Shown here piece by piece: positions 5,854 through 13,390 of a stretch of 64,000 nucleotides of DNA. The notes below the pieces were generated by a model. That model was not told the origin of the DNA and made no database searches. It worked only from the letters and a program-made list of their open reading frames with translations. Made by a program: the position numbers and the translations under genes. Source of the DNA: Acidimicrobiaceae bacterium (GTDB taxonomy: Bacteria > Actinomycetota > Acidimicrobiia > Acidimicrobiales > RAAP-2); NCBI GenBank assembly GCA_003132305.1, contig PKXJ01000035.1:78992-142991 (forward strand), written 5' to 3'. The number at the start of each line of letters is the position of its first letter. Position 1 is the stretch's first letter.

Positions 5854-6897
5854 ATGCACGAGTTGGCCCAGACCATCAGCGCGACGTGGTCACCGTTCGT
5901 CCTCGTGGCGGGTCTCCTCCTCATTGGCCACGTCGCCTCGGGAGAAGGTCTCTTTCGACTCGTCGGTGCCGGGTGCGCGAGAGTCCCCGGCGGCGGCGTG
6001 TCGCTCTTCTTCGTGACGATGATCGCCGTCGCTCTCGTCACTGCCGTCCTGAATCTCGACACGTCGGTGGTCTTCATGACGCCCGTCGCCCTGTACGCGG
6101 CGCGAGCGAAGGGAACTGATGAGAAAGCGTTTCTCTACGGGACGATCTTCATGTCGAATTCGGCCTCGCTTTTGCTTCTCGGGTCGAATCTGACCAACCT
6201 GCTCGTTTTCTCCAGAAGGGCCACGCTGGGATCAACCTTTGCTCGCCACATGCTATTGGCCTGGATCGTTGCCGTCATGGTGACGATCGCGGTGGTACTG
6301 GCGTGGCGTTGGCGGGCGCTGCGCCAGGCCGTGCAGACCCCTACGAGAAGCAAGACCGCCTTCGTCTTCGGGCCCGGTGTACTCGCCGTAGGTTTCGCCG
6401 TCATTGCGATGCTGTTTCTCTCGAGGCCCGCGCTCTGGGTTCTCGTCGTGGGCGTCGCGGCCGAACTCTACGAGAGCGTCGCCAAAAAGCGCGTCAAACT
6501 TCATGACGCGCTCTCCGTGACGAATCCCTGGATCCTTTCACTGCTCTTCGTGATCGCGACGGCGGTGGGCTGGTTTGCCCGATACTCCTCGCTGACGACG
6601 CATCTCTTGCGCCACGCGAGTATCGCCGCGACGGTCACGACGTCGGCGCTCGCGTCACTCGTCATCAACAATCTTCCCGCCGCCTCGCTCTTCGCCGCCC
6701 ACGGCGTGGCTCACCCGTACGCGCTGCTCTTAGGCCTCGACCTCGGACCGAACTGTCTCGTCACCGGCGCGCTGTCGTCGCTCTTGTGGATACGCATTGC
6801 GCGACGGCACAAGTTGCAACCTTCGCTGTGGACGTTTTCCGCAGTGGGAACGGTCGTCGCGATCGTGGCCATGGTGTTGGCCGCGCCGCTGTTGTAG
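5854..6897 (+). CDS. ArsB/CitM-family anion permease
   Basis: Integral membrane protein of 347 residues with about ten hydrophobic helices, resembling the ArsB/NhaD (ion transporter) superfamily. The diagnostic repeats are LNLDTSVVFMTPVALYAAR and the later mirror motif SLVINNLPAASLFAAHG, each containing the helix-breaking N-L-D-T / N-N-L-P signature that forms the transport core. The segment SNSASLLLLGSNLTNLLVF is also typical. It is shorter than classical ArsB (about 430 residues), with the second half compact. Substrate could be arsenite or another anion; no arsenic-responsive regulator is adjacent, so arsenic resistance is not claimed. Confidence 0.75.
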   Translation: MHELAQTISATWSPFVLVAGLLLIGHVASGEGLFRLVGAGCARVPGGGVSLFFVTMIAVALVTAVLNLDTSVVFMTPVALYAARAKGTDEKAFLYGTIFMSNSASLLLLGSNLTNLLVFSRRATLGSTFARHMLLAWIVAVMVTIAVVLAWRWRALRQAVQTPTRSKTAFVFGPGVLAVGFAVIAMLFLSRPALWVLVVGVAAELYESVAKKRVKLHDALSVTNPWILSLLFVIATAVGWFARYSSLTTHLLRHASIAATVTTSALASLVINNLPAASLFAAHGVAHPYALLLGLDLGPNCLVTGALSSLLWIRIARRHKLQPSLWTFSAVGTVVAIVAMVLAAPLL

Positions 6898-6915: not shown

Positions 6916-7503
6916 TTACATTGAGGCGTGCGCGTCGAGTGTCCACACACTGGCGTTGACCACTCGGTCCCACGTCATTCCCTCGAGTGGTGTACGCGAC
7001 CAATGGACGCGAAGTGCGCGGATTGTTCCGCCGTGCGTGACCACGAGTAGTCGTTGGCTAGGCCAAAGTACTTTCACTCGTTCGATGAAGAGTCCGGCCC
7101 GCGCGACCACGTCGCGAAAGGATTCGCCGCCCGGCGGTCGGCTGTCCGGATCGACGAGGACGTGGTCGGTGACACCCGTGACGTCGCCCGTGAGACTCTC
7201 GAATGGCCCGCCTTCGAGGGTCCCAAAACAGCGCTCGCGAAGTAGGGCGTCGCTCTCGGGCGTGAGACCGAGTGTCGCACCAATGATCGAAGCGGTCTCG
7301 GCTGCACGATTGAGGTCACTCGACAAAAGGTGGTCAAAACCCGGTTCTCGCAAGGATTGAGCCACCTCGTACGCCTGTTCTTTACCTCGAGCGGTGAGCT
7401 GAGCGGTGTCGTTCTGTCCCTGGACGAGGCGCAGTTCGTTCCAATTGCTTTCGCCGTGACGCACCAGCGTGATGGAGAACTCGTTGCGCGGTGCGGACGT
7501 CAC
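6916..7503 (-). CDS. Histidine phosphatase (phosphoglycerate-mutase-like) family protein
   Basis: A 195-residue member of the histidine phosphatase superfamily. The nucleophilic His is in TLVRHGESNWN and the second catalytic His in VVTHGGTIRAL; the acid loop LRERCFGTLEGGPF is also present. Such proteins dephosphorylate small phosphorylated metabolites (for example GpgP or CobC-type enzymes); the substrate cannot be deduced. The frame extends upstream to 7575, but GTG 7503 is the better start because a TAACCT element sits 7 nt before it and the homologous fold begins at SITLVRHG. It converges on the upstream permease with an 18-nt gap. Confidence 0.85.
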   Translation of the reverse strand: MTSAPRNEFSITLVRHGESNWNELRLVQGQNDTAQLTARGKEQAYEVAQSLREPGFDHLLSSDLNRAAETASIIGATLGLTPESDALLRERCFGTLEGGPFESLTGDVTGVTDHVLVDPDSRPPGGESFRDVVARAGLFIERVKVLWPSQRLLVVTHGGTIRALRVHWSRTPLEGMTWDRVVNASVWTLDAHASM

Positions 7504-7510
7504 GACGTCC

Positions 7511-7516
7511 AGGTTA
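7511..7516 (-). promoter_or_regulatory. Leaderless -10 element TAACCT
   Basis: On the minus strand TAACCT is separated by 7 nt from GTG 7503 of the histidine phosphatase gene; supports that start over upstream in-frame codons. Confidence 0.55.
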
Positions 7517-7700
7517 GTGAAGTCGAGAAGGTACGAGAAAGTGAAGCGCCGCGTCGTTGGAAGTCGAACCGACACGTCAGCGCGTCACGCCGTCAGCGAC
7601 ACGACCAAGCGAGATCCGCGCCTCGCCCGTCGTCGCGAGTCTTCACGCGATGGACCTTACGAGCGTTCGAAGTGATGAATAGCACCGCGACGCCAGCCAA

Positions 7701-7840: not shown

Positions 7841-8617
7841 ATGCCACTTTTGCTGCCACCGAGAGCTTCGAAGCCACGTTCCGTCGGACTCACGATGATT
7901 ATCGACAAGGGTGTGCCGCTCAATCACTTTGTTGACCTCGTCGAAAGTCACGGTGAACACTTTGACTTCGTGAAGTTCGGCTGGGGAACGTCGGTGGTAA
8001 CAAAAAACTTCCAAGTGAAGCTAGACGTCTTAAAAGAGGCGGGCATTGACTTCTACCTCGGCGGCACGCTCTTTGAAAAGTACATCCAGCAGGACCTGTT
8101 CGATGAATTCCGTAGCCTTTGCCTGAGTTACGCCTGCCGTTTTGTTGAGGTTTCCAACGGAACGATCGACATAACGAACGACGACAAGGCGGACTACGTC
8201 AAGCGACTCTCCGATGACTTCCACGTCATCTCCGAGGTTGGTTCGAAGGACCAAGCGAAGTCCGACATGATGGCGCCGGTCAAGTGGATTAGCGACATCC
8301 AGGCCGACGTCGACGCCGGAGCGGTGCTCGTCACCCTCGAGACTCGTGAAGGCGGCAAGGGTGGCATCTGTCGCTCAAACGGAGAGCTTCGCTACGGACT
8401 CATCGAGGAGATATTGGCGGCGAAGATTGACCACGACAAACTTCTTTTCGAAGCTCCCTCGACGGAACTGCAAGCGTACTTCGTCCAGCGCGTGGGACCC
8501 GACGCCAACTTGGGCAACATCTCGGTCTCGGACGTTATCCCGCTCGAGACGATTCGAATGGGACTGCGCAGTGAGACGCTTCTCGCGTTCGAGCCCGGCC
8601 TTCTCGACGCCGACTGA
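7841..8617 (+). CDS. Phosphosulfolactate synthase (ComA) family protein
   Basis: A 258-residue TIM-barrel protein of the ComA/HSA32 family. ComA joins sulfite to phosphoenolpyruvate to give (2R)-phospho-3-sulfolactate, the first step of coenzyme M synthesis in methanogens; plant HSA32 and Bacillus YitD are homologues whose roles differ or are less clear. Visible family features: GLTMIIDKGVPLNHFVDLVESHG at the start, FVKFGWGTS, the FYLGGTLFEKY strand, VEVSNGTIDI, and the Gly-rich LETREGGKGGICRSNGE loop followed by LLFEAPSTELQAYFV. Length is normal. It heads a run of four same-strand genes (VOC protein 6 nt downstream, acyl-CoA ligase, acyltransferase). None of the other coenzyme M genes (comB, comC) is in the window. 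Confidence 0.85.
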   Translation: MPLLLPPRASKPRSVGLTMIIDKGVPLNHFVDLVESHGEHFDFVKFGWGTSVVTKNFQVKLDVLKEAGIDFYLGGTLFEKYIQQDLFDEFRSLCLSYACRFVEVSNGTIDITNDDKADYVKRLSDDFHVISEVGSKDQAKSDMMAPVKWISDIQADVDAGAVLVTLETREGGKGGICRSNGELRYGLIEEILAAKIDHDKLLFEAPSTELQAYFVQRVGPDANLGNISVSDVIPLETIRMGLRSETLLAFEPGLLDAD

Positions 8618-8623
8618 GGACCG

Positions 8624-9037
8624 ATGAGAGAAAGCCGCGACGTTTTTCACCTGGCCATCCCTTCGTTCGACCTCGATGAAACGTTGGAGTTTTACGTGAC
8701 CAAGTTGGGTTGCAAGTTGGCTCGTCGGTACGACGACCGTGTCACGTTGGATTTTTTTGGTGACCAACTAGTCTGCCATCTCACGCCGGCGCCCGAGCAA
8801 CTGACGCCCATGAACGAACTACCCATGTACCCGCGTCACTTTGGCGTGACGTTTCGCGAGCAGAAAGACTTCGACGCTCTCTATCAGCTGTGCAAACAGC
8901 GTGACGTACCTCTCTACAGTGACGTGAGCCTTCGCTTCGAAGGAAGAGTTGAAGTTCATCAGACGTTCGTGGCCTGCGATCCTTCGTCCAACCTGATCGA
9001 ATTCAAGCACTACGTTGACCATCGAATGATGTACTAA
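8624..9037 (+). CDS. VOC-superfamily (glyoxalase/dioxygenase-like) protein
   Basis: A 137-residue vicinal-oxygen-chelate protein with the two beta-alpha-beta-beta-beta modules of the fold. Probable metal ligands are His in DVFHLAIPSFDLDETLEFY, His in YPRHFGVTF and Glu in NLIEFKHYVD. The enzyme class covers glyoxalases, extradiol dioxygenases, epimerases and isomerases, so the reaction is unknown. It starts 6 nt after the ComA-like gene with GAGGA just upstream and is 10 nt before the ligase gene, so the three are almost certainly one transcript. Confidence 0.8.
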   Translation: MRESRDVFHLAIPSFDLDETLEFYVTKLGCKLARRYDDRVTLDFFGDQLVCHLTPAPEQLTPMNELPMYPRHFGVTFREQKDFDALYQLCKQRDVPLYSDVSLRFEGRVEVHQTFVACDPSSNLIEFKHYVDHRMMY

Positions 9038-9047
9038 CGGTTTCTCA

Positions 9048-10595
9048 GTGAAACCTTCTTCGCCCGGCTCGGGTCTCCAACTGTTCGACGCTTTAATTTC
9101 CGCTCAAGCGTCATCGCGTGGGTCGGCGCCGTATCTTCTCGAGGCACGAGGCTCTCGAATCCTGTCGTACGCGGCGTTGCGCGACGAGATCGTCGATCTA
9201 CGGCAACAGCTTCGGGCGTGGGGCGTCGGCCGCGGCGACCGCGTGGGTCTCTTGCTCGGTGATCCGCTGACCTTTTCCTCGTGGTTCTTGGCGGGTCTTA
9301 CGGCGGGTGCGTGGGTGGCGCCCCTCGACCCCACGGTCAGCACTTCCAATCTGATCCACCTCGACGCGCGTGCGCAGAGTCTGGGCCTCGGCACGGTGCT
9401 CAGCGACCGCGACGCGCCCGAGCGGCACTTCGTGCCCTGGCATAACGTCGTCGCGGCGACCCCCGACGTGTCGTCACCCGGCGTTCTCGAAATCTCTGAC
9501 CAAACGTTCAGCCAGGGCGGCGTGCTGCTCTCGTCATCGGGGACCACGGGCACGCCCAAGGTCGTGGCGCTTCCTGCGGCCCAATTGCTCGAGACCGCCG
9601 AGCTGATTGCTCGACACAATCAGCTCGAAGTCGCTGATCGGGGCTTTAATCCCTTGCCGCTCTGGCACATCAACGCCGAAGTAGTGGGGCTGCTCTCGAC
9701 GCTCGTCGCGGGCGCTTCGCTGATCCTCGACGACCGCTTCCATCGAACCGGATTCTGGAAGATCATCGACGACTTCGAGGTCACGTGGATCAACGCGGTA
9801 CCGGTGATTATCTCGCGACTCGCGGTGTTACAGGGTGATGAAGTGCCGCCACGGAGGGTTCGATTCATCCGCTCGGCGTCGGCGCCCCTGGCACCCGCGC
9901 TCTTCGAGCAGTTCGAGGCATCGACGGGGATCCCCATCATTCAGTCCTACGGCATGACCGAAGCCGCGAGCCAGATCTGCGTGAACCCCTTGAAGGGTGT
10001 TCGAAAGTCTGGTTCGGTGGGCGTGGCCGTGGGCGTTGAAGTGCGCGTCGTGGGGACGGAAGATCACGCCCCCTTAACCGAGGCGAACGTCGTTGGTCAC
10101 ATTGAGATAAGGGGTTCGACGGTCATCAAGAGCTACGAGAGTGCCGCCTACGACGACCGTTTTGACGCGGAGGGCTGGCTACGCACGGGAGACCTGGGTT
10201 ACTTTGACGATGACGGCTATCTCTTCATTGTCGGACGAACCGACGACGTCATCAATCGAGGCGGCGAAAAGATCTACCCGCTCGAGATCGAAAACGTGCT
10301 CGCGGCGGTCGAGGGCGTCGCCGCGGTCGCGGTCATCGGTGAGTTCGATGAGGTGTTCGGCCAGATTCCCGTGGCCTACGTGGAACCCGTCGACGTCGCG
10401 GTTCTGAGCTCGCTCGACGAGATGTCGAAGTTGGTCGAGCGGGTACGGATCAGCTCGAACGAGGCATTTTCTAGGGCGTACCGGCCGGCCCTCGTGAAGT
10501 TGGTCCATCACTTTCCCTCGCACGCCACTGGCAAGATTCGTAAGGGGCTGCTGCGTGAGGGTGACGTGGTCGTCGTTCATGAAGAACGCCTCTAG
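9048..10595 (+). CDS. AMP-forming acyl-CoA ligase, AAE3/malonyl-oxalyl type
   Basis: ANL-superfamily adenylating enzyme, 515 residues, GTG start. Core motifs are intact: the P-loop LSSSGTTGTPKVV (A3), the A5 motif IIQSYGMTEAA, WLRTGDLGYFDDDGYL (A7), GRTDDVINRGGEKIYPLEIE (A8) and the catalytic lysine in TGKIRKGLL near the C-terminus (A10). The region NPLPLWHINAEVVGLLSTLVAGASLIL resembles ligases acting on small acids such as oxalate, malonate or short fatty acids. Its position after the ComA-like and VOC genes suggests the substrate may be made by them, for instance a sulfonated or hydroxy acid; that is inference. Confidence 0.85.
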   Translation: MKPSSPGSGLQLFDALISAQASSRGSAPYLLEARGSRILSYAALRDEIVDLRQQLRAWGVGRGDRVGLLLGDPLTFSSWFLAGLTAGAWVAPLDPTVSTSNLIHLDARAQSLGLGTVLSDRDAPERHFVPWHNVVAATPDVSSPGVLEISDQTFSQGGVLLSSSGTTGTPKVVALPAAQLLETAELIARHNQLEVADRGFNPLPLWHINAEVVGLLSTLVAGASLILDDRFHRTGFWKIIDDFEVTWINAVPVIISRLAVLQGDEVPPRRVRFIRSASAPLAPALFEQFEASTGIPIIQSYGMTEAASQICVNPLKGVRKSGSVGVAVGVEVRVVGTEDHAPLTEANVVGHIEIRGSTVIKSYESAAYDDRFDAEGWLRTGDLGYFDDDGYLFIVGRTDDVINRGGEKIYPLEIENVLAAVEGVAAVAVIGEFDEVFGQIPVAYVEPVDVAVLSSLDEMSKLVERVRISSNEAFSRAYRPALVKLVHHFPSHATGKIRKGLLREGDVVVVHEERL

Positions 10596-10631
10596 CAGCG
10601 CTGCCACGTAATAAGTTCGGAGCGAAGTTCG

Positions 10632-11888
10632 ATGACGAGGAAAGTAATGAGCCCACCTGCTGAAGCGTCACCGAGTGGTACGCGCCAACGTCTGGATCAC
10701 GTGGACGCGATGCGTCCGATCAAGCAGTCGGCGGTTATCTCAACGCACGCGCTCATCTACTTTTCGCCCCTGACGACGAGTCTCTTCGCGTCGGGCTTAC
10801 TGACGCTGACGCACTTCTCGCGCGACGCGTTCCTCTTCGTCTCGGCGTGCATGCTGGCCTACAGCTATCGGAACAGCAGCGAAGTGAAACTGGGTCCCTA
10901 CTGGAAGCGCCGCTTCAGGGCGGTGGGTCTCGTCTACCTGGTGTGGACGGTCATCTACTTCCCGGTCGCCGCGGCGAAGGCGTCGGCGACGTTTCCCTAC
11001 TTTCGAATTCCGATGTCGTCGCTGTTCAGTGCCTCGGGCGCCCACAACTTTTTCTTTGCCCTCGCCACGGGGTACTACCACCTGTACTTCCTAGTCGTGC
11101 TCCTGGAGTTCTACGTCGTCTTTCCCTTCCTCTTTAAACTCATTCACCGCTTTCCTAAGTCGCACCTCTACATTCTCATCGGCGCGGTGGTCTGGCAGAT
11201 TCTCTTTCACTACGTGGTGCGCCGCGGCTGGCTCGGCTTCGTCATCTCCACGAAGCTCGAGACGCGCCTCATCTTTTCCTACGCGCTCTACCTGCTCGGT
11301 GGCGTAGTGGCGGCGTTCTATCTTGAGGCGTTTCACGACTGGGTCGTCCGTCACCGGCGAGCGATTCTCGGTTGGACGGTGGTCTGGGGAGCGCTGCCGA
11401 TCCTGCTCGACTACTTCTATCGCCACGGCTACGCCTTGCCCAAGATCATCGTGCCCGGGAGTGATCCCTTCGCCGTCGCCGTCGTTCCTTACGATGTCGG
11501 CGCCATCTTCGCGGTGTACCTGCTCGGGATCTATCTCGTCAGTCCCAAGCGCAGTGCGCGCACGCGCGCGATCACGGCCTCAGGGTCCGAGGCGGCGTAC
11601 GGCATCTACGTCTCGCAGATGCTCTGGATCTTGCTGATGCATCGATGGGCCGTCCAGTCCAATCTCATTCACCGCGTGCCGTGGCTGATCCTGATGCTCT
11701 TCGCCGTCACGGTGGCGTACCTCATGGGATGGCTCTTTAGCGCCGTCTTCGCGCGCACGCCCCTCGCGCGCGGCCTCGTGGGCCGAAGTCAAGTGCCGTG
11801 GAACACGTTGCTACCACGGCGTCGTCAACTCGTGCCCGCGACCCACGACGATTTCGGCGAAGGTCCCATGAATCTCACCGACCAGTAA
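10632..11888 (+). CDS. Acyltransferase-3 family membrane protein
   Basis: A 418-residue protein with about ten membrane helices, matching the acyltransferase-3 family that O-acylates polysaccharides, glycolipids or antibiotics. The entry motif is RLDHVDAMRPIKQSAVISTHAL, with the conserved His of the first helix in THALIYF. The SRDAFLFVSACMLAYSY stretch corresponds to the usual R-x-x-x-F-x-x-S-G-x-x-L block. The C-terminal ~40 residues are a basic and acidic cytosolic tail. It begins 36 nt after the ligase gene on the same strand, so an acyl donor made by that ligase could be its substrate (inference). A 116-nt non-coding gap follows. Confidence 0.8.
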   Translation: MTRKVMSPPAEASPSGTRQRLDHVDAMRPIKQSAVISTHALIYFSPLTTSLFASGLLTLTHFSRDAFLFVSACMLAYSYRNSSEVKLGPYWKRRFRAVGLVYLVWTVIYFPVAAAKASATFPYFRIPMSSLFSASGAHNFFFALATGYYHLYFLVVLLEFYVVFPFLFKLIHRFPKSHLYILIGAVVWQILFHYVVRRGWLGFVISTKLETRLIFSYALYLLGGVVAAFYLEAFHDWVVRHRRAILGWTVVWGALPILLDYFYRHGYALPKIIVPGSDPFAVAVVPYDVGAIFAVYLLGIYLVSPKRSARTRAITASGSEAAYGIYVSQMLWILLMHRWAVQSNLIHRVPWLILMLFAVTVAYLMGWLFSAVFARTPLARGLVGRSQVPWNTLLPRRRQLVPATHDDFGEGPMNLTDQ

Positions 11889-12004: not shown

Positions 12005-13390
12005 GTGCCTAAGTCGAGTGGCGAGAGTGAACGCCAGCGTGTACCGCAACCTCTGATCAAGCGGCGAATCGCCTCCGGTCGGGGTGCGATGGAACAGCCC
12101 AACGTCACCCACGACGGTGACGCTCGCCTCACGCCGAAGTTCTGGCTCGCCGTCGTCTTAACCGGCGTCGCGACCGGTCTTTTCGGGGCCCTCTTGATGT
12201 GGATCTTGACGCTCGTCGAACACGCCGCCTATAACTACCACTCGGGCAGCTATCAGGGTGCCGTGGCGGCGGTGTCGGGAGTTCGTCGCGTGGGATCGCT
12301 CTTCGTTGCGGGCGCGATTGGCGCGGTCTCGTGGTATCTCATTCGTCGCTATCTCAAGAACGAACGCTCCGAGATCGACGAGGCCGTCTGGAGTGGTGAC
12401 GGCGAACTCTCGCCTCGACGGAGTCTTCTCACCTCCGTTGTTTCCGAGGTCGTTATCGGTCTGGGCGCGTCGATCGGCCGTGAAGCCGCGCCCAAGTTGA
12501 TGGGCGGCGCGTCGGGATCGGTCATCTCGCACTGGTTTGACTTGACTCCCGCGCAGAAGCGACTGCTCGTGGCCTGCGGTGGCGGCGCCGGTCTCGCCGC
12601 GGTCTACAACGTGCCCCTCGGGGGTGCCCTCTTTACCGCCGAAGTGCTGTACGGCAGTTTTGCGCTGCCGGTCGTCTTTCCCGCGCTCGCGACGTCGCTC
12701 ATCGCCACTGTCGTCGCGTGGGTCTACCTACCCAATGGTGCCACCTACGCCGATATCCCGAACTATCGATTCAGTTCGTCACTCATGGTGTGGTCGTTGC
12801 TCGCGGGCGTGGTCATGGGCCTTCTCGCCGTCTTCTACGTTCGTCTCATCGGATGGGTGTCATTTCATCGCGCCCGGGGCGCTCATATTTTTTGGGCCAT
12901 GCCGCTGGCGTTTGTCGTGGTAGGCGTTATCGGACTGTGGTACCCGCAGCTCTTTGGTAACGGGAAGGGAATGGCCCACAGCGCCTTTTTGGGACTGGGC
13001 AGCGTCGGGTTACTCTTAGCGCTCTTCGCCCTTAAACCCCTGGTAACCGCCCTTACGCTCGGCAGCGGCGCGTCCGGGGGTGTCTTCACCCCGTTTCTCG
13101 CCACGGGCGCCGTCCTCGGCGGGTTTTTAGGTGCGCTCTGGATCCACCTGTGGCCCGGCACGCCGGTGGGCGCGTTCGCGTTAGTGGGAGCGGCGGCGAT
13201 GGTCGGCGCTGTGATGCAGGCCCCGCTCGTGGGACTCGTGTTGGTGCTGGAACTGACCCACGGGGGATTCAACATCATAATTCCCATTATGGCCGCTACC
13301 ATTATCGCCACGCTCCTCGTGCGTCAGATTGACGGCTACTCCATCTACTCGGCCCGTCTGCCCGGGCGCGAAGCGTCGAGTTCGACGTAA
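12005..13390 (+). CDS. CLC-family chloride channel or transporter
   Basis: A 461-residue membrane protein of the CLC family. The selectivity motifs are recognisable: the helix-N motif GREAAPKLMGG (canonical GREGP, with the gating Glu retained but Gly-Pro replaced by Ala-Ala-Pro), and GASGGVFTPFLATGAVLGG (the G-x-F-x-P loop). The motif AAMVGAVMQAPLVGLVLVLELT is also typical of the helix-O/P region. The N-terminal ~30 residues before the first helix are hydrophilic; ATG 12089 is an alternative start. Whether it is a channel or a Cl-/H+ exchanger cannot be told. Such proteins help acid tolerance in some bacteria. Confidence 0.88.
   Translation: MPKSSGESERQRVPQPLIKRRIASGRGAMEQPNVTHDGDARLTPKFWLAVVLTGVATGLFGALLMWILTLVEHAAYNYHSGSYQGAVAAVSGVRRVGSLFVAGAIGAVSWYLIRRYLKNERSEIDEAVWSGDGELSPRRSLLTSVVSEVVIGLGASIGREAAPKLMGGASGSVISHWFDLTPAQKRLLVACGGGAGLAAVYNVPLGGALFTAEVLYGSFALPVVFPALATSLIATVVAWVYLPNGATYADIPNYRFSSSLMVWSLLAGVVMGLLAVFYVRLIGWVSFHRARGAHIFWAMPLAFVVVGVIGLWYPQLFGNGKGMAHSAFLGLGSVGLLLALFALKPLVTALTLGSGASGGVFTPFLATGAVLGGFLGALWIHLWPGTPVGAFALVGAAAMVGAVMQAPLVGLVLVLELTHGGFNIIIPIMAATIIATLLVRQIDGYSIYSARLPGREASSST

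Follow-up and report, generated by a model that had tools for sequence, protein, structure and literature searches.

Two described systems employ phosphosulfolactate synthases of the ComA family. In Bacillus subtilis the yitCD genes, which encode ComB and ComA, are the genes of spore sulfolactate; YitD is the nearest ComA of solved structure to the protein discussed here and a phosphatase partner is found in both cases, but we know of no link of yitCD to a VOC protein, a ligase or an acyltransferase-3 (AT3) protein. In the bacterial coenzyme M pathway of the Xanthobacter type ComA takes the first step, which it would have in common with the locus described below. AT3 proteins, in turn, are known to add anionic succinyl groups to glycans (PMC9558356). 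Succinylation by OpgC, ExoH and IcaC is an anionic decoration of this kind; these proteins share the R-X10-H type of AT3 with our locus, for which an anionic acyl group is likewise proposed, but there the donor would come from an operon-borne ligase together with a sulfonate synthase.

The window analyzed here, a stretch of 64,000 nucleotides from an Acidimicrobiaceae bacterium, contains the genes of Table 1. The original prediction placed a ComA homologue, a VOC enzyme, an AMP-forming ligase and an AT3 protein in one run, and the open reading frames confirm these positions; their coordinates, all on the plus strand, leave gaps of 6, 10 and 36 nt, and the Pfam scores of all four proteins lie above the cut-offs. 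The extent of four genes was too narrow, since a fifth, divergently oriented gene for a histidine phosphatase (HisPhos) recurs with the set. No sulfite source was found among the annotated neighbor genes. At a distance of 6 kb from the module, the window also encodes a PLP decarboxylase (PF00282; 17857-19227, minus strand) beside an arginase-family gene; the PF00282 family includes glutamate and cysteine-sulfinate decarboxylases.

Table 1. Genes of the module and its flanks, in coordinates of the window.
Feature	Position	Strand	Family match or remark
CitMHS-like transporter, flank	5854-6897		kept mainly in near relatives; not counted as part
Histidine phosphatase (His_Phos_1)	6916-7575	-	PF00300, 156.6 bits; divergent from ComA
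ComA-family phosphosulfolactate synthase, YitD-like	7841-8617	+	PF02679, 264 bits (cut-off 25.2)
VOC protein, FosA-like fold	8624-9037	+	PF00903 (Glyoxalase), 44.4 bits
AMP-forming acyl-CoA ligase	9048-10595	+	PF00501 (AMP-binding), 154.8 bits; PF13193 (AMP-binding_C), 38.2 bits
Acyltransferase-3 (AT3) membrane protein	10632-11888	+	PF01757 (Acyl_transf_3), 83.7 bits
ClC channel, flank	12005-13390		kept mainly in near relatives; not counted as part

Do these genes belong together? ComA occurs in 13 of the 198 genomes of the window's order and is a single-copy gene in the window's genome. When the best first-look candidates of each genome were scored, the VOC protein reached at least 218 bits in eight of the 198 genomes, all of which belong to the 13 with ComA, and the next best score in any genome was 82 bits. 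As the VOC profile was built from those eight genomes, only the absence of the VOC protein elsewhere counts as independent evidence; weaker matches in 32 further genomes of the 198 (at most 82 bits) were taken to be other VOC enzymes. A search with the window's ligase alone as query, in which the best seven first-look candidates per genome were scored, returned at least 272 bits in the same eight genomes, each time on the contig of ComA, and 214 bits for the next best. AT3 is found at the module locus in all eight (the window and seven others), albeit cut by the contig end in G193. Among the genomes drawn, the link between ligase, VOC protein and ComA is strict in this order. Within the genus of the window, two of the six genomes drawn are devoid of both ComA and the VOC protein, and among 296 genomes drawn from the phylum four contained the VOC protein (E<=1e-25), all with ComA, and 32 contained ComA. 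The gene set is more than a chance arrangement; it is a real, conserved module.

With the VOC alignment as query, GTDB genomes yielded 427 relatives, and the best 80 loci were kept. Within the stretches fetched, many of them on cut contigs, these 80 loci contain ComA in 75, the ligase in 59, AT3 in 55, HisPhos in 42, a GDSL/SGNH protein in 20 and ComB in four cases. The module is distributed over Actinomycetota and Bacillota in these best 80 of 427 loci, the hosts according to the records being Acidimicrobiaceae, Trebonia, Frankia, Nocardia, Actinomycetospora, Streptomyces physcomitrii and Alicyclobacillus, and some titles of metagenome-assembled genomes (MAGs) name other phyla. Order and strand of the genes vary among the 80 loci: in Nocardia (L096, L100) ligase and AT3 precede ComA, and HisPhos is found upstream or downstream. 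The GDSL cluster is the next widest after the five families (11 of the 57 loci left after 23 were removed), and apart from GDSL and MFS the other neighbors, as far as the recurring clusters were annotated by Pfam, mostly reflect local synteny (proteases, menaquinone genes, a spore permease, ribosomal proteins). Twelve of the 80 loci, some on short contigs, consist of ComA and VOC genes without the other module genes. ComA is not in view in five (L075, L093, L098, L101, L104); in L101 the VOC gene stands at the contig end, and L098 lies near a 2-hydroxyacid dehydrogenase, members of whose cluster are also found in L066 and L104. In L075, from Alicyclobacillus suci, there is no ComA beside the VOC gene and inspection by eye indicates two ComA fragments (L075:7691-8020), with VOC, GDSL, AT3 and ligase genes still present; genome G498 of the Alicyclobacillus order shows the same pattern and has another ComA elsewhere.

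The nearest entry to the window's ComA in the PDB is 1u83 (260.4 bits), which we take to be B. subtilis YitD. All 44 family-invariant positions are retained in the window's protein, invariant meaning conserved to at least 97% over 57 module and nine coenzyme-M-like rows, with the same residue in each PDB row covering the position; three sites common to both PDB rows and the coenzyme M rows differ (V to A at 222, L to I at 238 and D to E at 245). The original prediction named confinement of the gene order to a single genome and loss of residues relative to known ComA as what would speak against it; since the gene set recurs in relatives and in two phyla and the ComA residues are kept, it has withstood both. 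Against the archaeal equivalog TIGR03849 the window's ComA scores 222.5 bits, below the cut-off of 280. In quick trees, for which, as for the ligase, rows were thinned by hand and near copies and spans under a set length were left out, eight of the nine coenzyme-M-like ComA rows form a clade (SH-aLRT 99; L164 lies outside), the window's ComA stands outside this clade, and the module rows group with YitD at a support of only 80, which is not starred.

Several other ComA branches came into view. L158, L161 and L162 form a divergent ComA-like branch with KFAGG replacing KFGWG and adjoin an MmgE/PrpD-type gene (called by Pfam for L158, by BLAST cluster for L161 and L162). L154, L155 and L157 have a LysR-type regulator upstream of ComA and a protein of about 650 amino acids nearby, and in L154 and L155 a FAD_binding_2-type gene is also located upstream (Pfam on cluster representatives). 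Two genomes of one family each contain two ComA genes (L168, L169, L170, L171), the second of which is without a VOC gene yet groups with module ComA.

Could the locus simply serve coenzyme M synthesis? The enzyme family is the same, and bacterial coenzyme M clusters contain ComA (PMC11507031). In each of the five remaining ComA genomes of the order at least two of Lyase_1, PALP and DUF7714 are found nearby (shown by BLAST clusters in every case and by Pfam for four loci), neighbors that match the bacterial coenzyme M set (PMC11507031). However, the ComA proteins of these five genomes fall into the separate clade (SH-aLRT 99), and these partners are missing from the window: tblastn of the window with four coenzyme M locus proteins of the order and one ComB gave no match at E<=1e-3, which bears out the earlier statement that no coenzyme M genes are in view. 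The bacterial coenzyme M pathway was rejected on both grounds, and it is highly improbable that ComA makes coenzyme M here among incidental neighbors.

For the product of ComA to become sulfolactate a phosphatase is needed in the proposed scheme, and in some loci another enzyme stands at the ComB position. ComB lies directly upstream of ComA-VOC in L083, L089, L091 and L102 (called by Pfam in L089, by a PF04029 match at this site for the genomes of L083, L089 and L091, and by BLAST in L102), of which the first three are Bacillota, while the record of L102 names a Sulfurimonas MAG. The place directly upstream of ComA is taken by HisPhos, encoded on the strand of ComA, in L066, L068, L087 and L106. 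The RHG motif is kept in 45 of 45 HisPhos rows, and by profile and motif the protein belongs to branch 1 of the histidine phosphatases. HisPhos is also found beside ComA in L156 and L160, which have no VOC gene and adjoin polysaccharide genes (both have Polysacc_synt_2, L156 also DegT and DUF354, and L160 also LytR_C), the HisPhos of L156 being a BLAST match at the contig end. This placement, at the site of ComB and again beside ComA in L156 and L160, suggests that HisPhos likely stands in for ComB as phosphosulfolactate phosphatase. Against a replacement speaks that one remote ComB-family match (64.3 bits, contig C11) exists in the window's genome, alone among the eight module genomes of the order, and that a module-bearing Frankia genome (G203) has such a match too. 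HisPhos was not seen in two of the eight module genomes of the order (G193, where the contig is cut, and G021), and in Alicyclobacillus mali (G198) there is neither a ComB match in the genome nor HisPhos in the ComA-VOC locus. The C3 sulfonate that the original prediction expected from ComA gains support from the retained family residues and from the phosphatase partner, be it ComB or HisPhos, in the best 80 loci.

The VOC protein matches 3rri in the PDB (1.3e-56), and its structure model has a pLDDT of 95.3. In the list of similar folds 3rri (Z 21.8) is followed by FosA and FosB rows at Z 13-14 (Z 12-14 for the FosA, FosB and FosX enzymes together), and Foldseek also ranks FosA next, albeit TioX and an integron cassette protein lie within 1 Z of the Fos rows. 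FosA-type enzymes act on a small phosphonate. The fosfomycin enzymes FosA, FosB and FosX have the VOC fold in common with the module protein but are only 10-22% identical to it and are linked to resistance, whereas the module protein is linked to sulfonate synthesis. Nine residues are identical in 86 of 86 VOC rows (His9, Gln48, His52, His72, Arg104, His112, Glu126, Lys128 and Tyr130). Of these, His9, His72 and Glu126 may, given the fold match, correspond to the His, His, Glu metal site of FosA-type enzymes, and the conserved His52 is extra in the module protein; by alignment to glyoxalase I we assume His9, His52, His72 and Glu126 to be candidate metal ligands, with His52 as the fourth. The many invariant basic residues would fit a polyanionic substrate.

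The module ligases group into a single clade across both phyla (SH-aLRT 98, or 96 with further rows), sister to oxalate-CoA ligase, of which one was in the set, and a paralogue in the window's genome. The top solved match is the oxalate-CoA ligase AtAAE3 (5ie0), with which the module ligase has Arg275-Ser276 in common, but where AtAAE3 has His at 209 and 308 the module ligase has Asn209 (67 of 67) and Ser or Gly308. With its own sister clade and both histidines replaced, assignment as an oxalate-CoA ligase was rejected. His207, Asn209, Arg275 and Ser276 are found in 71 of 71 rows. A second ligase of the window's genome (L172:4616-5989) groups with the plant oxalate-CoA ligase.

AT3 proteins have an R-X10-H motif in the first transmembrane helix and an RXXR motif (PMC9833829). 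Arg28 and His39 of the first motif (R28-X10-H39) are present in 64 of 64 rows, the second is R93-X2-R96 in the window's protein, and by both motifs the protein is an acyltransferase-3. Its AlphaFold2 model (pLDDT 84.0) is all-helical; no PDB entry matched it at E<=0.001 and HGSNAT came first at 0.23, so the fold tells little for AT3.

In Bacillota the module comes apart. Nine genomes with a ComA-VOC locus devoid of the ligase encode a module-type ligase elsewhere (399-524 bits), adjoined by AT3 in seven of them; in G486 and G199 ligase and AT3 stand at the ends of different contigs. In the order of Alicyclobacillus mali, presumably Alicyclobacillales, 28 of 59 genomes contain the VOC protein, 44 ComA and 45 the ligase. 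ComA is located within 1.5 kb of the VOC gene in 27 of the 28 VOC genomes, and a second ComA away from it is found in many genomes of this order. The ligase is present in 27 of the 28 VOC genomes and in 18 of the 31 VOC-less ones (Fisher p 0.0005). The latter distribution is the main objection to sulfolactate as the acid of the ligase, and to this extent the control in this order spoke against the joint reading. Ten of these 18 genomes have no ComA at all, and near the ligase AT3 is encoded in 18 of 18, MFS in 17 and GDSL in 14. Ligases from genomes with and without the VOC protein are intermixed on the tree, and their pocket residues are common also to the Actinomycetota ligases, with Ser276 replaced by Thr in two of the 18 from VOC-less genomes; consequently, the common acid may not be sulfolactate. 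In Bacillota the pair of ligase and AT3 resembles a cassette for decoration with small acids in general, to which ComA-VOC may either provide the acid or run in parallel. The best-supported case for a joint module is that of the Actinomycetota; the two halves can be separated in Bacillota.

How might the five proteins act together? We infer the reactions, the acceptor and the order of steps from the gene families, retained residues, co-conservation and clades. ComA would form (R)-phosphosulfolactate from PEP and sulfite, and the histidine phosphatase, or ComB in some other loci, would take off the phosphate to give sulfolactate. The VOC protein would take up this small polyanion in a metal site of the His3-Glu type and alter it; that the change is an inversion or enolization at C2 is a guess, and rather an improbable one. 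The ligase would convert the acid to its CoA thioester, and AT3 would transfer the activated sulfolactate to a surface acceptor. That a small sulfonate is produced by these five genes and becomes attached to the cell surface has about an even chance of being right. The fuller version, in which PEP and sulfite lead to a sulfolactyl-CoA donor for AT3 at the surface, with tailoring by a FosA-like VOC protein and HisPhos in place of ComB, is held more tentatively and falls somewhat short of even. Of the joint pathway predicted originally, the common module has gained support from its occurrence in two phyla, the co-occurrence over genomes and the several gene orders, and the activation and transfer of a sulfolactyl group stay conditional.

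It could be imagined that the locus combines two half-systems, ComA, VOC protein and phosphatase producing free sulfolactate that serves as an osmolyte or as a solute for charge balance, and ligase and AT3 decorating the surface with another acid such as malonate, malate or lactate. The ligase-AT3 pairs of VOC-less genomes, more than half of them without ComA, the ComA-VOC loci standing alone and the common pocket residues would all agree with such a division, and free sulfolactate has a parallel in B. subtilis spores, which contain it at 5% of dry weight (PMC517825). However, no genome drawn from the window's order has the ligase (at least 272 bits) without ComA-VOC (eight of eight), even in the Alicyclobacillus order a single VOC genome is without it, and the set recurs in many actinobacterial loci, so that we consider the division possible but doubtful. 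Less probable still, and indeed unlikely, is that the ligase activates an acyl group which AT3 then places on the hydroxyl of sulfolactate or of a sulfolactate lipid, the product being a sulfonated lipid or a secreted metabolite. The same genes would fit and the MFS genes of the Bacillota cassette could be accommodated, but of the rows tested a small-diacid ligase comes closest to that of the module, and the AT3 review describes these proteins as modifying sugar structures outside the cytoplasm (PMC9558356). Finally, the order might be kept by descent only, without joint function, as close relatives also retain the CitMHS-like and ClC flanks; yet farther relatives are without these flanks and the set persists, rearranged, in two phyla, which leaves this explanation with hardly any probability. 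The transfer of a sulfolactyl group to the surface remains the reading that we prefer.

In the open-access literature, subscription papers being mostly outside the search, neither the gene set nor sulfolactyl groups were found described, and the module is apparently undescribed. A paper on Alicyclobacillus notes comA as present, its role not being tested there (PMC10562698), and in Corynebacterium the ComA cg2797, which may belong to another ComA branch, is 3.2-fold up at pH 6 compared to pH 7 (PMC2627906). A link of the hosts to acid habitats may exist, an impression gained from record titles.

Sulfolactate is on record as a spore component and as an intermediate of coenzyme M synthesis, and if the proposed pathway is true, a surface group would be its third use. 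A VOC family with a crystal structure (3rri) that carries a generic name would then gain an assignment, and since Alicyclobacillus, Nocardia, Frankia, Trebonia and Actinomycetospora are among the named hosts, the module is testable now. Acid-dwelling cells, if the proposal holds, may gain a surface charge that does not protonate.
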